Position numbers and translations under genes: made by a program
Assembly (NCBI RefSeq): GCF_964204645.1
Contig: NC_134029.1
Location: 17,626,450 to 17,690,449, forward strand
Length of the DNA: 64,000 nucleotides
Origin: Tubulanus polymorphus
Lineage: Eukaryota; Nemertea; Palaeonemertea; Tubulaniformes; Tubulanidae
Reading direction: 5' to 3'
In this document: positions 4,010 through 62,500 of the stretch, piece by piece
Numbering within the stretch: position 1 is the first letter of the stretch
Layout of the letters: each line of letters starts with the position of its first letter
The notes under the pieces: model-generated
Database searches by the model: none
Seen by the model: the letters and a program-made list of their open reading frames with translations, nothing else
What the model was told of the DNA's origin: nothing

Positions 4010-7000
4010 TCAACCTCCACTTATTGGGGGAATCACAGCTATTTCATCACCGTTGTTCAAATGAATTACACTGGAATCTATTTCGATGTATTCCTCATTG
4101 ACGGCGAGTACGATATTGGCAGATATAGCATCCAACCTGTGAAGACAAACACAATGAAATAAAGGAAGATAGTTGAGAAGGCTTATGAATGTATATTGCT
4201 TAACGTAAACAGTGCGCATACTGTTTTCCATGAATAGCAATATGGTTTGGGCTGGAAGCGAACAAGTCACAGCACCCTCTAAATAGAATGATGTTTGTTG
4301 TATTCTACAAAATCTGCTCTACCTAAATACAGTGTTTCTAATATCCAAATACGTATGGCAAACCATTCATCATCTGTACTTCCTGTTTTTTTTTTCAGGA
4401 AAATAGCCACTGGAGCCAGAGTGTCATATAAAACAAAAGTTTTTCTCTTAGATGGAAATGTTTGTGAATAATTTGTGATGCCACCCGTGTAGAGCCAGCG
4501 GCCATTATCTTTTTAAACACATCAGTACCAATAGATGTATTTTCTCTGATTTTTTGCAGAATAACCACTCAAAACCACAGGCTAATTCGATAACCCAGCG
4601 AGTGCCTGTGACGAAACAATACCTATTATTGACCGGATTTTATCCAACGTGTGTTCTCCCTCACGTCCCGGTACGGGTCTGGTGTGCTTAACGTGACAAA
4701 CGGCCGCCTGCTACTTATTTATAGTCTTTTCGTATAGACCTACAACACTTCGTCTAAGTTGTCACTGATACCCCGGTAGTTCTAAACAGCACTAATGGTT
4801 TGATTATACATATAGCAAACTACCGTAGCGCAAATAATGCCATACGGGCAAAATATACGCTTCTATAATCTTACCCAGGGAATTTCGATATTATATTGTG
4901 TTTGAGAGCCAGTCCTGTAATATCCTTATTCAATTCACATTCAACTTGTTTTCGACCAATGATTTCACGGCACTTTGCAAAGAAAATCAGATGCACCTGA
5001 AAATTCAACAAAAAGGCCCCATCAAATGCATTTGAAAAATTAAAGCAATGTCCAACTTGCGTACGTTTCTCCTACTGTCTGTCACACCTCCCCTTCGTGC
5101 AACCTTTCGTTCTGTAATTTCGTCAATAATCAATCAACCTTTATCTTCACCAAGAATCTTAGTTGGTTACACTTGGATCGTAGAGCGACGGAGATCACTG
5201 GTGGAGACAACCACTGCCAGTGCTGGGTGAACCTTTATCATGCATCAATTTCTTCAGTGACCAGTGTGCATTCAGAAATAAACAACCATTTGTCCCAAAG
5301 TTGTTTTTGTTTTCATTAATCATCTAATAGTCTTCTCAGCATACGCTTGAGTAATGCCAAAAAACCCGCTTCTTGGACGCTGGGAGATGTTGCTATGACA
5401 TAACCACCTATTGATTTGCATATCAAAATACAGCAGGCGGCCACACATTAAGCCTACAGAAGCTGTTTTTCAGCAACAAGTTTATGCCAATTCATGATTC
5501 ATTTCTGAATGCAAAATCCTTACCGAACAAGATTTTTGTTCTTTTTGGCTTTACGTCGCTTGGATCTTGGTTTTCCCAAGACTAACCAGTTGGATTATCA
5601 ACCTCTTTATTATTTAACCTCACGACAGGACAGCCTTTGAAGTGTTGCCTGCACACAAAACAGCCAGTAGGACTCAAACCCACTTGTACAGATTACTTGA
5701 TAAACTCAGTACAGATAGCGGATGCAACATCACGCCTTATCTCACTGAGCTAACTGTGAGGCCGCTGTTTGAAAAATAAACAAAAAACTAGGGGTCCAGG
5801 GACACCACGCCCACTTGGGAAGTGGTTCCAAATGCTCAACAATCTAACAATTTCAATATTCAACGCCCCCTGTTGACCATATACAAAAACCAATGACCTT
5901 GAAACTCACCACAATCATAGAACATGTCAGCAGCTTCGATTTTGTAATTGATTGTGATAAAAAAATATGCCTTGTTACCAATTTAATATGGAAATACTAA
6001 GTTATTCTACTATTTAACGCCCCCTGGTGACAATATTCAAAACGCAATGACCTTGAAACTTCCCACATTCATAGAACATGTCATGAACTACAACTTTGCA
6101 ATTGATCATGGTAACAAAATATGCCTAGGTACCAATATAATAAGGAAATATTAAGTTATTCTACTATACAACGCCCCCTGGTGACCAAAGAGAATAACCA
6201 ATGTCCTTAAAACTCGCAAAAATCATAGATGATGTCATGAGCTACAACTTTCCAATTGATTGTGGTTACAAAATATGCATAGGTACGAATATAATATAGA
6301 AATGCTAAGATATTGCATTATTCAACGCCCCCTGGTGGCCATATTCAAAATCCAATGACCTTGAAACTCACCACAATCATAGAACGCGTAATGAGCTACA
6401 GCTTTCTAAATGGTTGTGGTAACAAAATACGCTTAGGTATCAATATAATGTGGAAAAACTTTTTCCCACTTACGAATGAGTACTGGTGACACCAAGATGG
6501 CTGCCAATTGCGTCATAATTGGCTGATGAAAAATACCTGTCTCAGGTATAAAACATCCCTTTCCAAAGAATACCCATCACAAAATGCAATGAGAAATGGT
6601 AAACCAGTAGGAAGCTACAGGACTCAGAATTCGGGCCAAAATTAACATTTTTGGGCACTAAAAAAGTCATAGGACGGCCATCTTGAGTTCGATCGTCCCA
6701 ATTTTTGTTATGCTGATGGGCCCTGGGGGGATTCACATATATCCGAAAGATCAAGGTAATTGATCGAAGCGTCTTCAAAATTTCCCTCAATAAGTTCAAA
6801 AATGTGTAAAAAGTGCTGATTTTGGCGAACAACAATGGCTGCCAGTCGGTCATCTTGAATCTGATAGGGCCAGTTTTTGGGCTAAAAATGTGTCTAGGGT
6901 AGATACATGCGTAACCCAAATATCAAGACATTACCTTGAAGCGTCTTCAAAACTTCCCAAAATAACTGGATTCCTTCTACGGACAGACGGACGGACGGAC

Positions 7001-8389: not shown

Positions 8390-9107
8390 ATTACGCATTT
8401 TGGCATTTTGGCATTCATTTTGTGATATCTGGACTCTTTGGAAGTTTTGTATTTAACAAATGTTCGTGTTTTTGACGCCATAAAACTTAACCTTTACAAC
8501 AATATTTTGTGTATTGATACTTATATTACTTTGTGTGAAGCGATGTGCACCACGTCATAAATATTGGCGTTTCGATATATTTCATGAAGTCTTATTTTCT
8601 ATTTATCAATGTTCATGTATTTGAGAAATGAGTGCGATGTTCTCCGGCTAGCCTCGTTTGGCGTCAATAAATTTTTAAGTTTAGTTTTTTGTGTAACATA
8701 GGTTACAGGCCTAACTCAAATCACTGATTCATCTTCTATCATTTCAACAACGAATTTTGAGTGGATATGTCCCCGCATCATAAACATTGCCGGTAGATTG
8801 ATGGCCTGCCGAATTCAATTAAATGGCGGAAACCAGTCTAGGGGCTAGCCCGGTGATACTGGTTGTCGGTCATTTCAATTTAATTGTCGATATATTAAAA
8901 TTCAATTTATTGATCCTTTAGTATCATATTATTCATTTTCGATAATATTAGGCAAATGAGTTATTTTTCTTCAAGGCGTCAATTAAACTATCAACTTTTT
9001 CGTGAAACTGGACCCAGCAATTGCCAAAAATCGTCGCGTGTGTAAAATTTTGATAGAATCGGGAGGTTTTTACATTGAAAGCATATATTCAATATCAAGC
9101 ATATACT

Positions 9108-9504: not shown

Positions 9505-10991
9505 TCATTTGATACTAAGCACAGGTTTACTGTGATGCGGTGGCACGTGAATAGAACCGGCGACGATGTTGTCTTTACCACCGGTGACGTCTTTACTTAT
9601 ATTCGGCAACCCTAACAGGCACCTCATGCCCAAAAATGCGTAAACCAACGCTTCCTTGTAATCTAATGTGTATTCGTCCCGATCGTACTCGACTATTTTC
9701 ACGTCCAATGTCGATAAACGTTCCGTCAAACATTTTACTAAAAACAAGTTATGAGCACCGCCGCCTGTTACTAACATCTTGCGTTTCCCGCCCGCTCTAG
9801 GCGCGGGGACAGACGTCGCTTCCAACAGAAACAACTCAACAGCTTGACAAATTTCATCGATAATATGGGCCACAGATGTGCGCAGCATGTCCTTGATTGA
9901 CCACGTCTGGAAGAAAAATGTCAGAAATATTAATTTTGATTCAGTAAAACAGGTAGTGGCACGAAAAATACGAAATATTTGCAAAAAAAATAACAAGTAG
10001 GTATACAGCCTGTCTGAAACTATGTAGGCCTACAGTTATTTTGAATAAGTTGGCCCTATACTACGTTTTACATATTCATAAAAATTCAACTTCGTTTCAA
10101 CGTGCAGAGGAGTAAACAAGACTACTAACACGTGACTAATCGACCCGCTTTATATGTGAATTGGAATTCAAGACATTTTTCTCAGTCAAAAGCTTTTGAA
10201 ATGAAGAGGCAAATGGTTTAATATAGGCCTAGGTCTACCTTGTAATCTAGAAGAGGTAGAACCTCTTTATCGAACCATTCTCTGCACAAACTTTTCGGCC
10301 GAGACTGTTTGTAATAGGTTATCGAATTCAACTGTTGCCTGAGCGGAGCTAAGATTTCTCCGGATTTTGCCAATTCGCCATCTTTATCGAACAAAGCCGA
10401 TTCGTTCTGAATTCTCGCCAGATAGTTCAACAGCATATTGCACGGACAAATATCATGAGCTTTGCCCTCGAACGACATGTACGCGAAACCTCCTAGATTC
10501 AGGCAAAAATCGTACTCCTGATACAGATAAGGATCAGCCATGGCCACCAGAGGACGACCGTGTCCGCCGAGTTCGATATCCTTCCCGCGGAAATTCGTAA
10601 CGAGCGGACAGTCGATGAAAGTAACGATTCTTTCACCATCTCCTAAACTAAACGACAGTCCATTGCCGGGCTGGTGAAACGCCGTGTGCCCGTTACAGGC
10701 AACGAAATCGAGCTCTTTGATGTCTTCGCTTTCGATGAATGATTTCACTTCCTGGCCGATAAAGCGACCGAAATCGGCATGTAATTTGATCAGGTCGGGG
10801 CCGCTGGTTCGATGAGAGTTTTTCAGTCTGATCCACCATTTTTCGCTGTAGTCAATAGTTTTGACTTTGATGATGCGATAACTCCACACGTCCGACGAGG
10901 GATTGCCGAGAAATTCAGCGTAACAGATATCAAGACCGTCCAGTGAATTCCCGGACATCAACCCGATTCCGTGGTACGATGCCACCGACAT
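9505..10991 (-). CDS. Anhydro-N-acetylmuramic acid kinase (AnmK family)
   Basis: AnmK cleaves the 1,6-anhydro ring of anhydro-MurNAc and phosphorylates it, a step of bacterial peptidoglycan recycling. Two exons, 10239-10991 and 9505-9906, joined in phase 0 (AAG then ACG), give 384 residues; bacterial enzymes are about 370. Visible motifs: phosphate-binding GLMSGNSLDGLD at residues 10-21, NGHTAFHQP at about 100, GGHGRPL at about 142, NLGGFAYMSF at about 165, and the putative catalytic Asp at 180 in HDICPCNML. The C-terminal lobe has VTGGGAHNLFLV. Two spots differ from the usual bacterial form I know: GTSLDG reads GNSLDG, and TGPGN reads ICPCN. An acceptor (TTGCAG) lies 7 nt upstream of the ATG, so a 5' non-coding exon is likely. 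The spliceosomal intron shows the gene is resident and is not contaminating bacterial DNA. The role in an animal is unknown; use on dietary or symbiont cell-wall sugars is inference. Confidence 0.92.
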
Positions 10992-11482
10992 GGCGAACCT
11001 GCAAGCAGACAGAAACCAGAGCTCAGTGTTAAACTAAACAATTTTCCCAACAAATGAAATCGTTAATATATATATATGCTGGTTTGGATTTAGGTGGTGG
11101 TTTTGGAATCCTACCTTCCCATTGATGTTGCCCTTTTCGTCAATACGGAATAGTTAAAACCTGCAAATTTTACACTCATTCTATAAGGAATCCCCATTTT
11201 TAGGAGGTATTTCTTTAAAGATACATTAACATCGAGGGTGGGACCCCGATCGTAGCATTGACATGGATGTGTTATTCGAGTAATGCCCTTTCTTTCTGGA
11301 CCCCGACCTTCTAATTTTCCCGTGGATCCTATCCCGGACCCCCGTCTACAACTCAAGATTAAATGTAACCGTGATTGCACGAGCTTTTTTGTCCGGGACG
11401 AATTTTAGCACGGGACAAGTAATTGCGTTTGAATGTCAAAATGCTGGTTCCGGAAATCATCCACTTCGCTTTGCTTAGTATT

Positions 11483-18018: not shown

Positions 18019-19068
18019 AGTCAGCCAGCCAACCTTAAAAAACTATCCTAAAATTCGACGATCACGGCATTTTTTGTTACAGCTTGGCATCCGGGCTCAT
18101 TTGATAGCAGAGTATGTGGGCTATCATGTGTGGTGGATGCCTTTTACAATTTTTTCGTTTTTGGCCTACAGGGGGCGTTAAAGTCAGACATTTTGAAATT
18201 AAAACATCTTCATTTTCATTCGTCAAGGAAATACACTTTAAACTACTTTTGCTAAATAATTCGAATATCTCATCTTAGGTTTGGAGTAATTTTACAATCT
18301 AAACCTTTTCTGAGTTGGGGGATTGCAGCGCATATAGCGCAACGTTAATTTTATGCATAAGTTCATTTGTTACCTAGTTACAGCAGCAACAATCGTGTAA
18401 TATTCACTTGAAAATAGCAATTTCATATAAAATATTCATTTTAAAGGTTATTAGCTCAAATAGTGATGTTGTTAATGTTTTTTGTTGATTATTTTGATAT
18501 TTCTTTAAACTTACTTATAACTCGTATGTACTTGGTCAATATCGGGATTAACTGTTTATTGGTTTCTATGGTAACAGCAATTCAAATCTGCGTTCTTCAT
18601 CCGTCAGGTACCGGTATTTTGGGCGTTGGGTCTTTCGTGACATTCCAAATGTTCTCAAACTTGCCTAAAGTCTTCGGCCATGTATTGGGCCGCTTATTAC
18701 TACGTCTTGCTAACAATTGAATTGCAACAATGGTAACCATTGTTGCAATTGGAGAAAAATCGCGTAATTTGTCCACATTCTTGACGTAACCAATGGATTA
18801 ATTGAGGATGTGTTTATCTAAAACCATATCTAATCTCTTTTCTTTAAAATTTTAAAATCATTCCATATTCGTTCACGAGTAAATTATTACTAAACGTTGT
18901 CACCATGGTAACCATACATTATATGCGTTTATTTGAAAAAAAAAAAATTCTTTTTTTCCCATAAGATTTTCTCCCATATCTTTTGAACCCTTTCACCGAA
19001 TTTGTTGTATGAAAGCTCATTTTTGAGGCAATTCCTTGAATTTTCCTTACTTCTAGGGGATGATACTA
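18019..19068 (+). repeat. Left arm of a ~1.05-kb inverted repeat
   Basis: It starts AGTCAGCCAGCCAA and matches 22810-23831 in inverted orientation along its length. The 85-codon ORF at 18463-18720 and its inverted twin at 23135-23392 differ at only four residues. Inside the arm is a hairpin at 18723-18749 (TTGCAACAATGG mirrored by CCATTGTTGCAA). The inner end is near 'tacttctagggg' (about 19062). The outer ends are well matched as far as AGTCAGCC, after which the flanks diverge. Confidence 0.85.
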
Positions 19069-19115: not shown

Positions 19116-20272
19116 TAGCCCACTTGGGACTTTAGTCCCAGCGGGCTATTGCGTTCACTTTTCGTGACTACTTTTCAGCCCAAAAACTGGCCCTGTAAGA
19201 ATCAAGATGGCCAACTGTCAGCCATTGTTGTTCGCTAAAATCAACACTTTTTACACATTTTTGAACTTTTTGAGGGAAATTTTGAAGACGCTTTGATCAA
19301 TTACCTTGATCTTTCGGATGTATGTGAATACCCCCCAGGGCCCATCAGCATAACAAAAATTGGGTCGATCGGACTCAAGATGACCTATGACCTTTTTAGT
19401 GCCCAAAAATGTCAATTTTGGCCCGAATTCTGAGTGCTGTAGCTCCCTACTGGTTTGCCATTTCTCATTGCAATTTGTGATGGGTATTCATTGAAAAGGG
19501 ATGTTTTATACCTGAGACAGGTATTTTTGATCAGCCAATTATGACGCAATTGGCGGCCATTTTGGTGTCATCACTACTCATTCGTAGGTGGGAAAAAGTT
19601 TTTCCACATTATATTGATACCTAAGCGTATTTTGTTACCACAATCAATTAGTAACTTGTAGCTCATAACGTGTTCTATGATTGTGGTGAGTTTCAAGGTC
19701 ATTGGTTTTTGTATATGGCCACCAGGGGGCGTTTATTAATACTATATCTTAGTATTTCTATATTATATTCGTATCAATGCATATTTTGTAACCACAATCA
19801 ATTGCAAAGTTGTAGTTCATGACATCATCTATGATTGTCGCAAGTTTTAAGGCCATTAGTTATTCTATATGGTCACCAGGGGGTGTTGAATAGTAGAATA
19901 ACGTAGTATCTCCTTATTATATTGGTACCTAGGCATATTTTGTTACCATGATCAATTACAAAGTTATAGTTCGTGACTATAGTTCGTTCTATGATTGTGG
20001 TGAGTTTCAAGGTCATTGGGTTTTGAATATGGTCATCAGGGGGCGTTGAATAGTAGAATAACTTAGTATTTCCATATTAAATTGGTAACGAGGCATATTT
20101 TGTTATCATAATCAATTACAAAATCGTAGCTGCTGACATGTTTTATGATTGTATTGAGTTTCAAGGTCATTGGTTTTTGCATATGGTCACCAGGGGGAAT
20201 ATTGAAATTGTAGATTGTTGAGCATTTGGAACCACTTCCCTAGTGGGCATGGTGTCCCTGGACCCCTAGTTT
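19116..20272 (-). mobile_element. Family A repeat, copy 2 (inside the large inverted repeat)
   Basis: Minus-orientation copy: TAGCCCACTTGGGA at 19116-19129 on the left, and on the right TCCCTAGTGGGC (one change from the consensus end) followed by the inverted leader ending CCTGGACCCCTAG. Four internal units of about 150 bp with CCAGGGGGCGTT are visible. No ORF. Confidence 0.8.
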
Positions 20273-20599: not shown

Positions 20600-22448
20600 A
20601 ATTGCATTATAATAATCTTATAAAGCATTCCAAGAGGCAGTACTACAATACCAGGATTAGTGATGCAGGGTTCGGATGGAAAAGCTATGCAGAAAGTGTT
20701 TGATGAACTTCTTCTGAAAGATGTTAGTAGAAAGCTGCCAGATAGTGATGATTGGGAAGAACTTGCAAATAGATTTGCAACTTTCTTTGCTGACAAAATT
20801 GAGAGGATTAAACTATCTTTCCCAGACTCGTGTTTGGGTCCTGAAACGATGCATTTCGGAGATTGTGAGTTAGAGGAATTTGAGCCAGTCTTGGAGAAAG
20901 AGCTTGTATCAATAATAGGGTAATCGCCAAGTAAGTCATGTGAGCTTGATGCTTTGCCTACTTGGATGCTGAGAGCCATCCTACCTGCTGTCATTCCTCT
21001 CTATTTGGACATTATTAACAGACCGTTGTTGGAAGGATACGTTCCCGTGTCTATGAAGACTGCGTTGATAACCCCGCTCATTAAAAAACAGAGCTTAGAT
21101 ACTTCCGTTCTCAAAAACTACCGTCCAGTCAGTAACCCCCCGTTTATCTCCAAGGTACTGGAGCGTGTTGACGCTGCTCGTATAACCGCTTATATGGATG
21201 CTAACAATTTACATGATATTTACCAGTCTGCGTACAAAACCTGTCACAGCACCGAGACAGCTCTTGTCAAGGTTCAAAGTGACATTCGTAACATGGTTGA
21301 CGCTGATGGTGCTGCCATACTTGTCCTTTTAGACCTGAGTGCTGCCTTCGATACTGTGGACCATCTCATCCTTGTAAATCGACTTCAGGTAGTGCTCGGT
21401 ATTCGTGGTTCAGCACTTCAGTGGTTAATATCGTACCTTGAGAATCGAACGCATCGTGTCGTTATCAACAGACATTACTCTGATTTCTGCAAAGTTGAGT
21501 ATGGTGTGCCCCAAGGCTCCGTGCTGGGGCCACTATTGTTCCTCATTTATATATTGCCCTTAGTGCAGTTATTTGAGGATAGCAAAGTTTCACGTCATGG
21601 TTTTGCGGACGATGGTCAACTGTATATGGCAATCAAATGCAAATCATTGGACATCAGTAGACAAGTTAATGTTATCGGGCTTACATGTTCTCATGTCAAC
21701 AAGTGGCTTATTGACAATAAGTTGATGTGCAATGTGGATAAGTTCGAGGCAATGTTGTTTGGAACAATGCATATACTGCGTTCAATCAACATACGTAGTA
21801 TTCGCGACTGATGACTTTGAGATTCCGTTATCGAATAAACCTATCCGAAATCTTGGAGTAATTTTTGACCCTCAGCTCAATATGGAGGCACATGTTAGTA
21901 GTGTTGTCTGTGCTACGTCCTATTATCTTAGGGCGATAGGTAGCATCCGGGACTACTTGTCTGATGCGGCTGCGAAACTGTTGATGCAGTCCCTAGTTTT
22001 GTCGAGGATTGACTACTGTAACGCATGCTTGGCAGGATCGTCTTTTTCTTCTCTTCATAGACTGCAATTAATAAAGAACCGTGCCGCTCGTATTGTCACC
22101 AAAACAAAGAAATATGAGCATATAACACCTGTGCTTAGGTCCCTTCACTGGTTGCCTGTGAAACAGCGCAAAGAGTTCAAAGTTATTCTCCTTGTTTTTA
22201 AGTGCCTCCACTTGTTGGCTCCAGTCTACTTGAAAGATCTACTCGTTCAGTACAATCCAGTTCGTGCACTAAGATCATCATCTCAAAATTTACTGTCTCC
22301 AGCCCATTACAACCTAAGTACTTTTAGTGGACGTTCATTTACTGTAGTTGCTGCTTCCCTTTGGAATAACATTGATAACCACCTGCGTAATATTCACGAT
22401 GTCAACCAGTTTAAACGTTCACTAAAAACAAAAATGTCCATACATTGA
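20600..22448 (+). pseudogene. CR1/Jockey-type non-LTR retrotransposon reverse transcriptase, broken
   Basis: Reverse-transcriptase core with NYRPVSNPPFISKVLERV, palm motif A (LVLLDLSAAFDTVDH), motif B (YGVPQGSVLGPLLF) and the catalytic FADDGQLY, then a C-terminal thumb-like region with SRIDYCNACLAG and LHWLPVKQR. The frame from 20660 to about 21790 is interrupted by a TAA at 20921-20923. A frameshift near 21780-21800 moves the rest (to 22448) into another frame. No endonuclease or first ORF is seen upstream, so the copy is 5'-truncated. It lies between the two arms of the large inverted repeat. It cannot code for an intact protein as it stands. Confidence 0.9.
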
Positions 22449-22809: not shown

Positions 22810-23831
22810 ATGTCATGCCCTAGAAGTAAAGAAAATTCAAGAAATTGCCTCAAATATGAGCTTTCATTCGACCGATTCGGTAAAAGGGTTCAAAAGATAT
22901 GGGAAAAAAAGAATTTTTTCAAATAAACGCATATAATGTATGGTTACCATGGTGACAACGTTTAGTTATAATTTACTCGTGAACGAATATGGAATGATTT
23001 TAAAATTTTAAAGAAAAGAGATTAGATATGGTTTTAGATAAACACATCCTCAATTAATCCATTGGTTACGTCAAGAATGTGGACAAATTACGCGATTTTT
23101 CTGCAATTGCAACAATGGTTACCATTGTTGCAATTCAATTGTTAGCAAGACGTAGTAATAAGCGGTCCAATACATGGCCGACGACTTTAGGCAAGTTTGA
23201 GAACATTTCGAATGTCACGAAAGACCCAACGCCCAAAATACCGGTACCTGACGGATGAAGAACGCAGATTTGAATTGCTGTTACCATAGAAACCAATAAA
23301 CAGTTAATCCCGATATTGACCAAGTACATACGAGTTGTAAGTAAGTTTAAAGAAATATCAAAATAATCAACAAAAAACATTAACAACATCACTATTTGAG
23401 CTAATAACCTTTAAAATGAATATTTCATATGAAATTGCTATTTTCAAGTGAATATTACACGATTGTTGCTGCTGTAACTAGGTAACAAATGAATGTATGC
23501 ATAAAATTAACGTTGCGCTATATGCGCTGCAATCCCCCAACTCGGAAAAGGTTTAGATTGTAAAATTACTCCAAACCTAAGATAGGATATTCGAATTATT
23601 TAGCAAAAGTAGTTTAAAGTGTATTTCCTTGACGAATGAAAATGAAGATGTTTTAATTTCAAAATGTCTGACTTTAACGCCCCCTGTAGGCCAAAAAACG
23701 AAAAAATTGTAAAAGGCATCCACCACACATGATAGCCCACATACTCTGCTATCAAATGAGCCCGGATGCCAAGCTGTAACAAAAAATGCCGTGATCGTCG
23801 AATTTTCCATGATTGGCTGGCTGACTACATT
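22810..23831 (-). repeat. Right arm of the ~1.05-kb inverted repeat
   Basis: Inverted partner of 18019-19068 by visual alignment. Identity is high, with scattered substitutions and a small indel near the outer end, where the left arm has an extra 'cttaaaaaactatc'. The outer end is TTGGCTGGCTGACT at about 23818-23831, immediately followed by a piece of repeat family C. Confidence 0.85.
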
Positions 23832-34600: not shown

Positions 34601-37600
34601 CGAGGATATTTAGGGGGTTTATAAAGAGAGGGCCTGTAGGTCGAAAAGTACATTGAGATCACTCGAACTAAAAACGGCGACACTTCCCGGAAGGATTGAA
34701 CTTTAATATATTTCAATTGCAAGCATGAAAATTGTCATATATAAAAACGTGCCATTACTTAGTGCTAAAAAGCAGGGTTTTTTCAAGAATAAGTCCCCTA
34801 AAAATAACTCGATCACTATGAAATTTTTGTGGGCTCGAGAACTCATTAAGCCAAACCATGAAACCAAAAATCAACACAATCGGTTCAACAGCCAATGTTT
34901 GTGCCTTGTTGACACACCGGTACTCTATTCCTTTTCAATGAAAACTGCTTCATCAGACCGTTTGCATAGGCAAACCTACGGTTCGCCAAAAACCAATGAC
35001 CTTGAAACTCACCACATAATATAACATGTCAGCAGCTACAATTTTGCAATTAGTTGTGATAACAATATACCAGTATGCCTCGATACCGATATAATAAGGA
35101 AATACTTATTTATTCTACTATTCAACGCCCCCTGCTGACCATATACAAAACCCGATGACCTTGAAACTCACCATAATCATAGAACATGTCATGAGCTACA
35201 ATTTAGCAATTGATTAAGGTAACAAAATATGCCTAGGTATCAATATATTAAGGAAGTACTAAGTTATTGTATTATTCAACGCCCCCTGGTGGCCAGATGC
35301 AAAAACCAATGACCTTGAAACTCACCACAACCATAGAACATGTTATGAGCTACAACTTTGCAATTGATTGTGGTAACAAAATATGCTTAGGTATCAATAT
35401 AATGTGGACAAAACTTTTTTCCACCTATGAATGAGTACTGATGACACCAAGATGGCCGCCAATTGCGTCATAATTGGCCGATCAAAAATACCTCTTAGCT
35501 GTTGAAGATCCCTTTCCATAAAATAGCCACCACAAATTTCAATGAAAAATGGCAAACCAGTAGGAAGCTACAGGACTCAGAATTTGGGCCAAAATTGACA
35601 TTTATTGGCACAAAAAAGGTCACAGGACCGCCATCTTGTGTCCGATCGACCCAATGTTTTCATATGCTGATGAAGCCTTGGGGGATACAAATACATATGA
35701 AAGATCAAGATAATTGATCAAAGCGTCTTCAAAATTTCCCTTGAAAACTTGAAATATGTGTAAAAAGTGCTGATTTTGGCGAACAACAATGGCTGCCAGT
35801 CGGTCATCTTGAATCTGACAGGGCCAGTTTTTGAGCTGAAGATGTGTCTAGGATAGATACACGTGTAACCCAAATATACAGACATTGCCTAGAAGTGTCT
35901 TCAAAACTTCCCAAAATAACTGGATTCCGTCTACAGACGAACGGACGGACGACGGACAAAAAGTGAACACAATATCCCGCTGGGACTAAGTCCCAAGTGG
36001 GCTAAAAATAATTTAATTGTTACCTCTAATGTATTTTGAAGGTATTCTCTATTCGTTTCCAAAACCTCTTTCTCACTAAAGCCTAACATCAAGTTGAGCG
36101 CTTTGATGCCTTTCTTTTCTAGACTTTCCTGCAAAAATTTTGCAAGTCTGAATTGATATATCATCAGAATGTAAATAAATTCTTTTCAATGTCAGAGAAA
36201 ATTGAAACATCATACCCGTATCGTTTGTACAAACGGCATCACTCTTTTCATATGCTTTTTCAGATCAGGTTTATTCTTCCATTCTTGTGCAATCACTTTC
36301 ATATCAGGCAATACATTGTTGTTACCCTATAATGAAAACCAAAGTATGTGTGAAGTTAAATGTCTTAATCATACAATAATGTATGATTAATCCTTTCATC
36401 ATTCAAATCGAATTACAGCAAAATGTTTTGCATTGACTTTACACGGGCCAAATAGTCCCAGTCAGCCAGGAACGGATAGCATCGTAATGAATGAAATTTC
36501 TATGTATTGGTATCTAAAGTCGAATTTTATTTAATCCATATAAACTGAGGAACCATGAGGAAAAATTCCTGAAAAATATACCTTGTGTTAGCACATCAAC
36601 ATTAAACCACTTAACAGGCAATGAGCAGAAACCCTGTCTGTGTCAATCAATCATTAACTTTTAAGCAGTTACACTTAGCCTTACTCAGGTTGACTTACGA
36701 CCCGACTAGATCGTCGTAAGAATAACAGTTGTACACACATGGCCGCTGACTCTTTGTCTTACGATCTGAAGAACACTTAGGTTAACTACGACTCGATCAT
36801 CGAATATAGAACTCGTATTATCCTTGCGATCAGTCTACGATCAATCCGTCGCGGTCGTAAGTTTATTCATGTCAAGAAAGTTCTCGATTAAAAAATCTCA
36901 AACTCGCCTCCTTCCGATCCAATGATCTGATTGACCTGAGCTTAGCTTTAGCCTTATTCAAGTCATAAAAGACTATCAGATCGTCAGATCTAAAGGATAA
37001 CTATTCACCAATTTTTCAGTCATGGAATCTTTGTGATGACATGAGATGTTCTACTTTTAACGACCATCCAATTGGGTCTTATACATGCCCCGAGTATATT
37101 TGAGATCTGACAAACGAGTCTTGGCCGAATTGACAAATTGACTCACGACATGAGATGAGTGTTCTTTAAACACTGACACAGATTATTTACCTGGTAAAGG
37201 GATTTCAGTGTCGTCAATACAGTTGCCTGCCATGGTGGATACGTTTTTGCAATCCAGATCGTACAGTGAGTTGGCTTCTCAACTTTTTGCACAGCACCTT
37301 TCTAGAAATACAGAAATTTTTCATCAGCTCAAATACGGAATATGTACATGTACAAAATTATCGTCAATTTTTTTTAAGAAGACTATTTTCCAATTTAAGT
37401 GGTCATTGTTTCAATGTATTCAATTAGAAATAGGATTCTTTCATGATTTTCTAGCCGCAGAGACACAAAATTTCAGGATCCTGGCAGCACAAAAACGGAA
37501 TAAGATAATCAGAAACTGATATCTAGATTTTTACCTTTCCTTTCACTTGCATAGACTTTGATTTCCTTAGACGAAATTCGTGAGCAGCATCAGACAAATA

Positions 37601-46600: not shown

Positions 46601-49600
46601 ATAAAATAACCTATGAAATAAGTATATTCTCACCAGCAATGAGCATTTGGAATTTGCACGTATACGGCACCTAGTCCAATGAAACGTTCGCTATTTTGGC
46701 GTTCCCATAATTAGCCTAGTAGCGTCGGAATTCCCCGTATATCCCATAAACAGCCAATCACCTTCGCTCGAACAGATGACGCCCCAATCGAGGTCATTGC
46801 AATATTATACGCAAGTGCTAAGAATTTTCCCGCCAAAAACAGTTTTTCGGCAAATTTTAACTAAGTTGACAATGTCATCGACGGAGGTCCGCCATGTCTT
46901 CAATCACATCGATCATACGTCGTTTAGGCAGAGAACCAATGTAACAAATGCTCACATAAACTAGGGGTCCAGGGACACCATGCCCACTTGGGAAGTGGTT
47001 TCCAATGCTCAACAATCTAACAATTTCAATATTCAACGCCCCCTGGTGACCATATACAAAAATCAATGACCTTGAAACTCACCACAATCATAGAACCTGT
47101 CAGCAGCTACGATTTTGTAATTGATTGTGATAACAAAATATGCCTCGTTACCAATTTAATATAGAAACACTAAGTAATTCTACTATTCAACGCCCCCTGG
47201 TGACCATATGCAAAACCCAATGACCTCACCACAATCATAGAACATGTCATAAAATACAACTTTGCAATTGATCATGGTAACAAAATATGCCTAGGTGCCA
47301 ATCTAATAAGGAATACTAAGTTATTCTACTATTCAGCCCCCTGGTGACCATATAGAATAACTAATGTCCTTAAAACTCACCACAATCATAGACGATGTCA
47401 TGAGCTAACTTTGCAATTGATTGTGGTAACAAAATATGCTTAGGTATCAATATAATGTGGAATAATTTTTTTCCACCTATGAATGAGTACTGATGATACC
47501 AAGATGGCCGCCAATTGTGTCATAATTGGCCGATCAAAAATACCTGGCTCAGGTATAGGCCTAAAACATCCCTTTCCAAAGAATACTCATCACAAATTGC
47601 AATGAGAAATGGCAAACCAGTAGGAAGCTACAGGACTCAGAATTTAGGCCAAAATTGACATTTTTTGGCACTAAAAAGGTCCTAGGATGGCCATCTTGAG
47701 TCCGATCGACCCAATTTTTCTTATGTTGATGGGCCCTTGGGGAGTACAAACATATACGAAAGATCAAGGTAATTGATTTAAGCGTCTTTAAAATTTCCCT
47801 CAAAAAGTGTAAAAAGTGCTGATTTTGACGAACAACAATGGCTGCTAGTTGGCCATCTTGATTCTAATAGGGCCAGTTTTTGGTCTGAAGATGTGTCCAG
47901 GGTAGATACATGTATAATCCAAATATCAAGACATTACCTTGAAGCGTCTTCAAAACTTCCCAAAATTACTGGATTCCGTCTACGGATGGACAACGGACGA
48001 AAAGTGAACGCAATAGCCCGCTGGGACCTAAGTCCTAAGTGGGCTAAAAACCTACCACGATTTTACATGAATTGGCTCAATGCCAACTTAAGATCGCTGA
48101 CAAAGGTAAACCAAAAAGTGACTGCTGTAATTGTACTCGCTTGCCAGTGTCCAGAACGCACGGAGAGTATCACTGTACTTGCTTGTCACTACCCGGGACA
48201 CTAATTAAGTAAGTGGTCCTTGGATGGAATACCACAAATGCAGAACAGTGTTGGCAGCTACGCAGTCAATAGAAAGTCGTAACACTATATTTCCAATATT
48301 TCATAACACCCTATAATACCTTTTGCCGAATTGGATCCTGTTTTTTTCCTTTAATTTGAGAAACTGCCACCGAACAAACGAGTCGTAATAAGGATTTGCG
48401 TCCGTTGTAATAAACGATCTTCGCCAGTCGACCTGAAAACAGTTTAAAAACCAAAAACCAATGAATACGAAGCCGAACAACCTGAATCAAACAACTAAGT
48501 TACACTAGTAAGAAACAGAGCAAAGGTACCTTTAAACCCATTTGAGATAAATCTTCCTTCGCCAATGGTGGAAAATATCCGAGCCAATGTTCGGGATTGG
48601 CGAAATTCTTAATTTCATCATCTTTCAATCCAAGGGACCTCATGATATTCCACTGATATTTACTGGATCCAGATTTGGCAGCTGCCTTACTCTAAAATTG
48701 AAATCAAATAGCCTTTTTTGATGTTGGTTAAACACATACCTGTTGAAATGAAGCTGCTTATGTCATAATGCAGCTATCAATGTGAACCCTGACCCCCCCT
48801 AGTTCATCCATCGCCAGGATTTCGACGTGAAAATTGGTGGATCCTGAACGAAGACTTTTTTAGTAATTAACGAATCTCTGGCGAACCCAAAAGAAATGGG
48901 TGTCGTATCTCTATCGAATGCGTGAGGATTATGTATTCATTGAGCATCGAATGTCTGGCGGATTCCAATCTAAACCTACTTCGAAAGTCTGACGAAAAGC
49001 GGTTTGATATGCGGTTTGAACATACGGGACATATAGTCAGTTTACCTTCCGTTGTTACGCTCCCGATCGGATATGTCGCTTCACTAAAACGTCAGGTCGC
49101 CAGAGCCTCTATATCGTGGGAAATTCTCACAGAAGTTGTCACATTTAATTGTTAGCTTAGCATTATTTATCACTTCAATCTTCATTAAAATAAACAGCAT
49201 AAGTTCTATTTCAACTCTTTGGAGCTTGTTATTACGATAAAATTTAAACGAATGTGAAAATCCCCGATTGAAGAATCGGCCATGTTCATGGTGGTCTCAC
49301 CGTCGGCAACTATTTTCCATGATTCAGGAAGGTTTTCGTCCCAATGGAAACGAGAAAATATTCTTAATAAAGTCTAATTATTATTGTTTTTAAAGGTGCA
49401 TTGTTGATTTTTTAATATCGGAACAACGGTGAGATCTTCGCGGGCCGCAAAACGGTTAAAATAGTTAAGTTTTGTTAAGATTTTATAGTTTTAATAAAAG
49501 AAATGAAATTAATAAACATGCTACATTGTGTCGAATACCTGGCGTATTGTATTTCTTAAGGAAATCTGTCTAGTGGAAAGCTGTCGAAGCCCTGACGAGG

Positions 49601-59500: not shown

Positions 59501-62500
59501 ATGCATTTTAATCAGGTACCTAAAAAATAAGTGTAGTTATTTTTTTTTACTTCAGTTCAGTTTATTCACGAACAATTTGTCAATCAAAGTTGTTCCAAAA
59601 AAACATCATTGATATGTAGAATGCACATTTCTTGTTCCAATGCCTAAGTACAGAGAAAACTCTCCAACAGTCGAGATGTAGTTTGCACACTGGGCATAGA
59701 TGCAAAGTTGTTTAACTGGCCTCTTGCACCATGCCAGATCACCAACCCTAAAGAACCCATAAAAGCTGATGTGATCGGGACATTGAATAATTCTAGTACA
59801 ATTGTCCAAGGGAACTGACCCCAGAACTTGACACTTTCGCCTAAACAATAGCAGTTTTATGATTAGGCCATCATCAACCTTTGCCGACCTCCTCAAGCTA
59901 ATCAGAATCCCATTGACCAGGGTAGTTTGGCAAGGGTCCAAAGAAAACCACTTAGGCGGTGTACATATCATATGGCCAACCTATAACTTGCAGGCCCATC
60001 CCGAATGTATAAAGTATGCCACATTAATATGTGAGATGATTCGACCGGTAAAATTGGTTTCTGTTTAAAATAATGCAAATGAAACTGCATATAAAGGGGC
60101 CTAGCACGATTATGCTTGTATTGATGTATTACTGAGAGATACCCTTGCCAGACTAGCAGCTAATGCAACTAGGCATTTAGCAGTAGGTGTGCTGGTATTG
60201 GTGTCAGGCAGGTGTCCAGCTGTTCGAACTTGTGGACCTGCAAAGAATGAGCGCAAGGCTGTATTTTTTTGCCCTGGTATGTGAAGCGCCCAGGACTGAA
60301 TATTCCACCAAAGGCACCTCAATACAAGAGGGCTAACCAATTCCTAGCAGCTTCCATTGCTAGGTGAAGGGAGTCCGACATGACCATACAAAGGAGCGCT
60401 GTTAAATCCTTGATTGAGGATTTATAGCCATGATATGTACTTGACGCACTGGTGATCTTGACAAGATGGTCAGGTGCAGGATGCAACATCGATATTATGT
60501 TATCTTATTTATCAATATTGTAAACAAATGGTTTCCTGACTTGACTGATTCATCTAAATAATCCTGTAGCTTCCGACAATCGCCACCAAGCTTCTGAACC
60601 ACTAACTTTTGCACTGCTTCATATTCACCTAAGGTATTGCTACATATCCACCTTAGGTATAACCAAACTCTTTATTGATCGATGGCTTTACTTTTCAACA
60701 AATTCATCATCCAAAGCATTTTATTAGCTGCTTCTTCATCTGTCTGTATAAGCTACATTCATGAAAGCTGTTCAGTAACTGCCAAACATCAACTTGTTAC
60801 CATCAAATACCGGTATGTATTCAAGTTTAGATACAGCAATGATTCAGAATCATCTTCTTCAAGCTTAATTTCATTCTTGGAATGAATGTCATTTTGTTTC
60901 ATCTTAAGTATCCAGAATGCCTTTACTATGTTTGTCATTGGGGTGAAGTTACTCTAACCGAACTAGTACTGAGTCAGCTTTACCATTTTATATTCTTGCA
61001 TAGCTCTGGGTCCTGGCATAAAACTGTAAAACTGGCCATTAGTCAGGGAAAACCAAAACCCAAACTAAGACAATGCTTCCATATTTGATCACCACATCTT
61101 CAGTGAGACTTACTATTTCAATATCAGTGTATAAATCATCTGACGAAAAGTTATAATTGATTGTTGGTTACAGTGGAGAAAGTGGAGCTGGTAAAACTGA
61201 AAGTACGAAATTTCTGATAAAACAGTTGATTGAGCTATGTCATGGAAACAATCAATTGGAACAACAAATTTTACAGGTAGGTGAAACCATGACAGCTATA
61301 ATATGGACCGGTATGTATGACTCATAACGTGCCAGTCATTCATAAAGGTCAGCTAAGTAGGCGACCGCTAGTCTCCAACTAACAGTTTTAGTAGCCAAAA
61401 GACCAAGTTGGAGCTGAAGATATGGGAGATGGACCATATATGAACCAGCTTCTTGGGGTGGTTGGCTGTGTATAGACTAGTTTATTGAACATGTAGCTAA
61501 AAACATGATTCTTTTACTTTACTGTATTTTTATTGGTAAACCGTGCCATGCATCTTGATTAAAATGCCTTTTTGAAAAATGAAAATATTTGGAGTTACCA
61601 CTTTTACAATGAGTAACATTTGTGGGCCTACAACTTGTAAAAATCTCTGCTCGTTCAGTAACCATGAGTGAAATCTATCAATAACATCATTGAGACTTAA
61701 GTTTTCACTTATCCAGAAATTATTTTTTTTTAATCCATGACTATCTTTTTTTATCTTATCAGGTGAATCCACTTCTTGAAGCATTTGGGAATGCTCAAAC
61801 TTTAATGAATAATAATTCAAGCCGGTTTGGAAAATTCATCCAGTTGAAATTTAAAGAAGGACAGGGTGAGCATGGTGACTGCATTTTGTGGCCCTCTTGG
61901 GGCTAAACCCCAGCAGGCTATTGGTCCGCTTTTCAACGTTGTCTGTCCGTCTACCTGTCTGTGAGCATGGTGACTGCATTTTGTGGCCCTCTTGGGGCTA
62001 AACCCCAGCAGGCTATTGGTCCGCTTTTCAACGTTGTCTGTCCGTCTACCTGTCTGTAGACATGATCTATCCATTTGTCTTTGACAGAATCCAGGTTTTT
62101 TCAGGTTTTGATATTTGTTCCTATGCGCATGACGACATGTTTTGTTTCATCATTGTTGCGATTGTCAGATTGTCACGCATCTCAGATAGGCATGGCGTCC
62201 CTGGACCCCTAGCTTAAAAGTGAGCCTGCTCTGAATTGTAGCCTATTCATGTTTGACTTTTTAATTAGTGATAGGAGCGAAAATCTCAGAATATCTCTTA
62301 GAGAAATCAAGAGTCATCCGTCAAAGCAGTGGCGAGAAAAACTTCCATGTATTTTATTATATGTTGGCTGGACTGTCTTCCCAACAGCTGCAAAAATTTA
62401 AACTAAGCCTGACTGGGAATTACAGGTAAATTGGTCACAAGTGTTATATTCATTCCAGCTAGTTATTTTCAGTGTAAATTTTGGCAATGCAGTCATTTCA

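Follow-up and report, generated by a model that had tools for sequence, protein, structure and literature searches.

The window, a stretch of 64,000 nucleotides of Tubulanus polymorphus DNA, carries a two-exon animal gene for AnmK, a sugar kinase that serves cell-wall recycling in bacteria. The gene is very probably of bacterial (Bacteroidota-type) origin, and what is new is that the protein keeps the catalytic aspartate and the glycine loops yet is changed at 11 of 52 near-invariant columns. Taken as a whole, these features are on balance best explained by a transferred Bacteroidota-type gene that would still encode a sugar kinase, with a shifted substrate.

The coding span coincides exactly with a two-exon gene model of 384 amino acids (Table 1), with a frame unbroken over all 384 codons and intact splice sites, and the motifs from which the gene was first recognised (GLMSGNSLDG, NLGGFA, HDICPCNML, and VTGGGAHN) were all found in the translation. 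A strong acceptor-like sequence lies 7 nt upstream of the ATG, so that the mature 5' end is likely to derive from a non-coding upstream exon or from trans-splicing (spliced leader), and a further coding exon upstream may contribute additional N-terminal residues. Whole-genome searching (268 Mb) matched the two exons only, on a contig of 24.9 Mb, and the gene therefore appears to be single copy. CpG dinucleotides are not depleted over the gene (observed/expected, 1.38 in the coding sequence; 0.84 in the window).

Table 1. Features of the AnmK locus, other features of the window, and the GH3 gene found elsewhere in the genome. Positions are those of the window unless a contig is named.
Feature	Position	Strand	Details
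AnmK coding span	9505..10991	-	Two exons, 384 aa
AnmK coding exon 1	10239..10991	-	ATG at 10991; residues 1-251 (gene model); GLMSGNSLDG phosphate loop, CNGHT, NFRGKD, GGHGRP, NLGGFAY, HDICPCN catalytic-Asp stretch
AnmK intron	9907..10238	-	332 nt, GTAGAC...TTCCAG, GT...AG, phase 0; about 34% G+C (computed on a slice one base longer)
AnmK coding exon 2	9505..9906	-	Residues 252-384; VTGGGAHN, YKEAL, VTGG; stop TGA 9507-9505
Probable 3' splice acceptor	10992..11015	-	TTTCTGTCTGCTTGCAG + GTTCGCC, then ATG (sequence reading)
Possible polyadenylation signal	8906..8911	-	AATAAA, ~0.6 kb past the stop; motif only, may be chance
Small ThiS-matching frame	4010-4318	-	E 2.4e-7
Inverted repeat pair	18050-18941 and 22914-23806		792 nt at 98% and 113 nt at 100%
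LINE-type reverse transcriptase frame	20924-22448		Between the inverted repeats
Dispersed repeat family	5812-7000, 19172-20197 (inverted), 35074-35951, 46985-48000		Internal 154-bp tandem units
Tandem duplication	61866-62055		Perfect, 95 bp, two identical copies
Multi-exon GH3 gene	L054, G000:C1:28793000-28802900	-	Beta-xylosidase-type reading: KHFDAHGGPENIPVPRVSFDA, VVSDEGAIEYI

The gene had been taken for a resident of the animal chromosome, and this is confirmed by its GT-AG intron, the 24.9-Mb contig, and the animal genes that flank it. Contamination of the assembly by bacteria would account for best matches that are bacterial and for DNA richer in G+C (47% in the coding sequence, 38% in the window), but is ruled out by the spliceosomal intron, the contig, and animal flanks without bacterial neighbours, leaving it a probability close to nil; further, third-position G+C (0.53) is near that of the adjoining exons (0.46-0.47), and identity to any bacterium compared is only ~40%. 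Neighbouring frames match a galactosyltransferase, an MFS transporter, a leucyl-tRNA synthetase ubiquitin-like domain, a ThiS-like protein, and a LINE-type reverse transcriptase. The genome is rich in Wnt genes, as expected of an animal host, with 39 Wnt exon matches against 0 in 14 prokaryote control genomes.

By sequence, the protein is a full-length member of the AnmK family, with a match far beyond chance. The Pfam AnmK model (PF03702) is covered at 4-365 of its 367 positions (159.5 bits; cut-off, 24; E = 1.7e-46), with exon 1 matching positions 4-246 (E = 1.7e-29) and exon 2 positions 285-365 (E = 1.7e-9), so that the AnmK identity first assigned holds over the whole domain and above the curated cut-off. 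The best NCBIfam model was NF007144 (336 bits, of which exon 1 alone gives 261.5; runner-up, 198 bits), and its equivalog cut-off of 436 bits was reached neither by the animal protein nor, by a small shortfall, by Bernardetia (432) and one Persicobacter protein (435). Calibrated on nine other AnmK-family proteins with 14 models ranked, NF007144 came first for Bernardetia and both Persicobacter proteins (the second at 444 bits) and for none else of the nine. For E. coli, Enterococcus, Haladaptatus, Deinococcus, and Streptomyces it fell to 13th or last place, and so too for the fungal levoglucosan kinase (LGK; 13th of 14, with NF007148 best at 385 bits). Five control genomes contained NF007144 matches, one of which, presumably that of Bacteroides ihuae, exceeds the cut-off.

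Sequence searches and phylogeny likewise assign the protein to the Bacteroidota-type branch. The top three tblastn matches against plasmids, at 201-247 bits, were from Bernardetia and Persicobacter, and all others scored 137 bits at most. A scan of genome contigs with the single protein matched only a delta-proteobacterium. The original prediction had proposed a tree with bacterial, algal, fungal, and invertebrate homologues as a check. In a tree of 34 sequences (LG+C20+F+G4), with one animal sequence and three Bacteroidota sequences from two families (Bernardetia, Persicobacter), the animal protein grouped with the three Bacteroidota proteins at a support of 100/100, on a branch of 1.65. Vertical inheritance from a eukaryotic ancestor common to the fungal AnmK/levoglucosan kinases could draw on the functional family members carried by fungi (PMC9476349), but LGK falls in another branch and a clade uniting it with the animal protein was rejected (lnL 93 lower, p-AU = 4.7e-8). 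Model ranking and this test rule out common eukaryotic descent with LGK, and vertical inheritance as a whole is highly improbable. An older transfer from Bacteroidota to a eukaryote, with subsequent descent within animals, may also account for the gene. A viral origin was rejected, as two scans of viral contigs yielded no relative and phage records carry only ordinary bacterial AnmKs.

Within the Bacteroidota group the data were indifferent to placement (Bernardetia and Persicobacter together, p-AU = 0.55; animal and Bernardetia together, p-AU = 0.46), and a previous tree containing two additional rows set the animal protein beside Persicobacter (97/65). Given an animal branch as long as 1.55-1.65 changes per column, alternative positions inside the group fit equally well, and the donor would be placeable to phylum only. 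The DICP.N motif had been read as a hint of a Bacteroidetes donor, and the branch itself (NF007144 and the tree) and the presence of DICPCN around the catalytic Asp of Bernardetia agree with that reading; Persicobacter has DITYAN and DIGVAN in its place, so the motif by itself is not diagnostic of the donor as judged from these sequences. We infer that transfer ran from bacterium to animal: a Bacteroidota-type anmK would have been acquired horizontally, become what is now a single-copy gene, and later undergone strong divergence and the gain of one or more spliceosomal introns.

Conservation was assessed over 52 columns that are ≥90% conserved among the 35 other aligned sequences, using a leave-one-out count. 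The animal protein keeps 41 of the 52 and differs at 11 (T11→N, H94→N, Q109→S, G121→D, D127→N, A134→E, A140→R, N168→Y, G184→C, A270→I, and F330→Y, in Pseudomonas aeruginosa numbering), of which G184→C is common to Bernardetia and five (T11, H94, A140, N168, and F330) fall at sites holding one residue in all other sequences aligned there. Departures numbered 0-4 in full-length prokaryotic AnmKs, 1-3 in the Bacteroidota relatives, and 8-9 in LGK; the Mycoplasmopsis row, shortened probably because TGA-Trp codons were read as stops, is left out of the 0-4 range. The changes alter five motifs (GTS→GNS, SHG→CNG, DFR→NFR, GAP→GRP, and GGIAN→GGFAY). The threonine of the MSGTSxDG phosphate loop, found in 35 of 35 other sequences, is N15, with the remainder of that motif retained, and N100, N133, R146, and Y171 occupy the corresponding positions of SHGxT, DFR, GAP, and GGxxN, where the flanking G, R, and P are retained. 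Judged from the motifs to which they belong, the changed residues would line the pocket.

Retained features include D180 and N185 (the catalytic Asp, D182 in P. aeruginosa, and the Asn that follows), E336 (Glu326 in P. aeruginosa), R135, K233, GGGAxN, and most of GxMSGxSxDG. In the P. aeruginosa AnmK structures, Asp182 serves as catalytic base and the glycine-rich loops bind Mg-ATP. On these residues the protein is probably a catalytically active kinase of the ASKHA fold, in which D180 would act as the base and Mg-ATP would be held by E336 together with two loops, GxMSGxSxDG and GGGAxN. Conversely, a relic that has lost its catalysis or is in decay, or else a pseudokinase that binds or senses muropeptide sugars, would fit the long branch and the residues lost in the GTS→GNS phosphate loop, SHGxT, DFR, and GGIAN; given the open frame of 384 codons, the intact splice sites, the ~40% identity to Bernardetia, and the retained catalytic Asp, Glu, and glycine loops, it is unlikely.

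Should the enzyme be active, an altered substrate is somewhat favoured over the ancestral one. With 11 of 52 near-invariant columns changed, anhydro-MurNAc is unsafe as an assumed substrate, and its recycling is no more probable than a change of substrate or a loss of activity. The number of differing positions exceeds that of any full-length AnmK tested, and the suggested use of muropeptide sugars from diet or symbionts would be conjectural. The corresponding scenario of an ordinary transferred AnmK, in which bacteria that are eaten or live as symbionts supply 1,6-anhydro-MurNAc, and this is converted to MurNAc-6-phosphate and degraded or detoxified by the animal, is consistent with the full-length family match, the catalytic Asp and most glycine loops, and bacteria as the obvious source of the sugar, but is rendered rather doubtful by the 11 altered positions, five of them otherwise single-residue, and gains no positive support from the searches for its expected pathway partners. 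MurQ/GKRP had no match in the genome in an exon-wise search that also missed NAGK; since most animals possess NAGK, a search of this kind is weak and the absence of MurQ is not demonstrable by it. The same approach recovered nagA in fragments only, and the lone GH3 match is, by eye, of the beta-xylosidase type rather than NagZ.

In the reading favoured here, the sugar and phosphate pockets have been remodelled (T→N, H→N, D→N, A→R, and N→Y), so that the substrate has probably shifted, by analogy with LGK, to an anhydro- or amino-sugar from food or from symbiont bacteria or algae. More tentatively, the protein may have a rebuilt pocket and act as a kinase of another sugar or as a sensor of muropeptide sugars, a second, independent eukaryotic re-use of AnmK beside the fungal one. 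With a single sequence from animals, the 11 changes may instead be due not to adaptation but to noise in this lineage or to incipient decay.

Comparison with known systems places the gene closest to Bacteroidota-type AnmK (NF007144, PRK09585.2-3). Bernardetia sp. WP_338815807.1 aligns over the full length at 42% identity and shares DICPCN at the catalytic Asp, YDFCLNLGG, TGGGA.N, and YKEAL, whereas the animal protein differs from this type in its score (336 against the 436-bit cut-off), its altered GTS, SHG, DFR, GAP, and GGIAN motifs, its intron, and its location on an animal chromosome. P. aeruginosa AnmK (PDB 3qbw/3qbx) is of the same family by sequence, with equivalent Asp and Glu residues, but is a distant relative, its T11, H94, D127, A140, and N168 being replaced in the animal protein by N, N, N, R, and Y. 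LGK of Lipomyces starkeyi (PDB 4yh5/4zxz) is likewise a eukaryotic AnmK-family protein that departs from conserved columns, though it belongs to another family branch and mostly different columns are changed.

The open literature searched yielded no paper on an animal AnmK. Predicted proteins named 'anhydro-N-acetylmuramic acid kinase-like' occur in records of other invertebrates, and the gene is thus probably not confined to this species. Fungal levoglucosan kinases are a eukaryotic re-use of AnmK that acts on levoglucosan (PMC9476349), and aphid LdcA is a transferred peptidoglycan-recycling enzyme kept by an animal, in which it functions through promiscuous activities that its ancestor already had (PMC8689515). 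The present gene resembles LdcA in being a bacterial peptidoglycan-recycling gene retained in an animal; LdcA is, however, an unrelated enzyme (a carboxypeptidase) with a role tied to an obligate endosymbiont. Transfer of genes from bacteria to animals is already known, but peptidoglycan-recycling kinases of animals are apparently undescribed in that literature. If its substrate has changed, the gene would offer a compact test case for the re-use of a transferred enzyme; if anhydro-MurNAc is still the substrate, it would represent an uncharacterised animal step in the handling of bacterial cell-wall sugars, with a possible bearing on digestion or the control of muropeptide signals.

The GH3 gene is a further candidate carbohydrate-diet gene in this animal. 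Elsewhere in the window, the small ThiS-matching frame probably encodes a molybdopterin synthase small subunit (MOCS2A-like). The inverted repeat pair and the reverse transcriptase frame between its arms suggest a young element bearing long inverted termini or, alternatively, an insertion into such an element. The dispersed repeat family occurs four times in the window, with copies in both orientations, and is the source of several spurious ORFs. The two copies of the 95-bp tandem duplication are identical, which points either to a very recent event or to an error of assembly.
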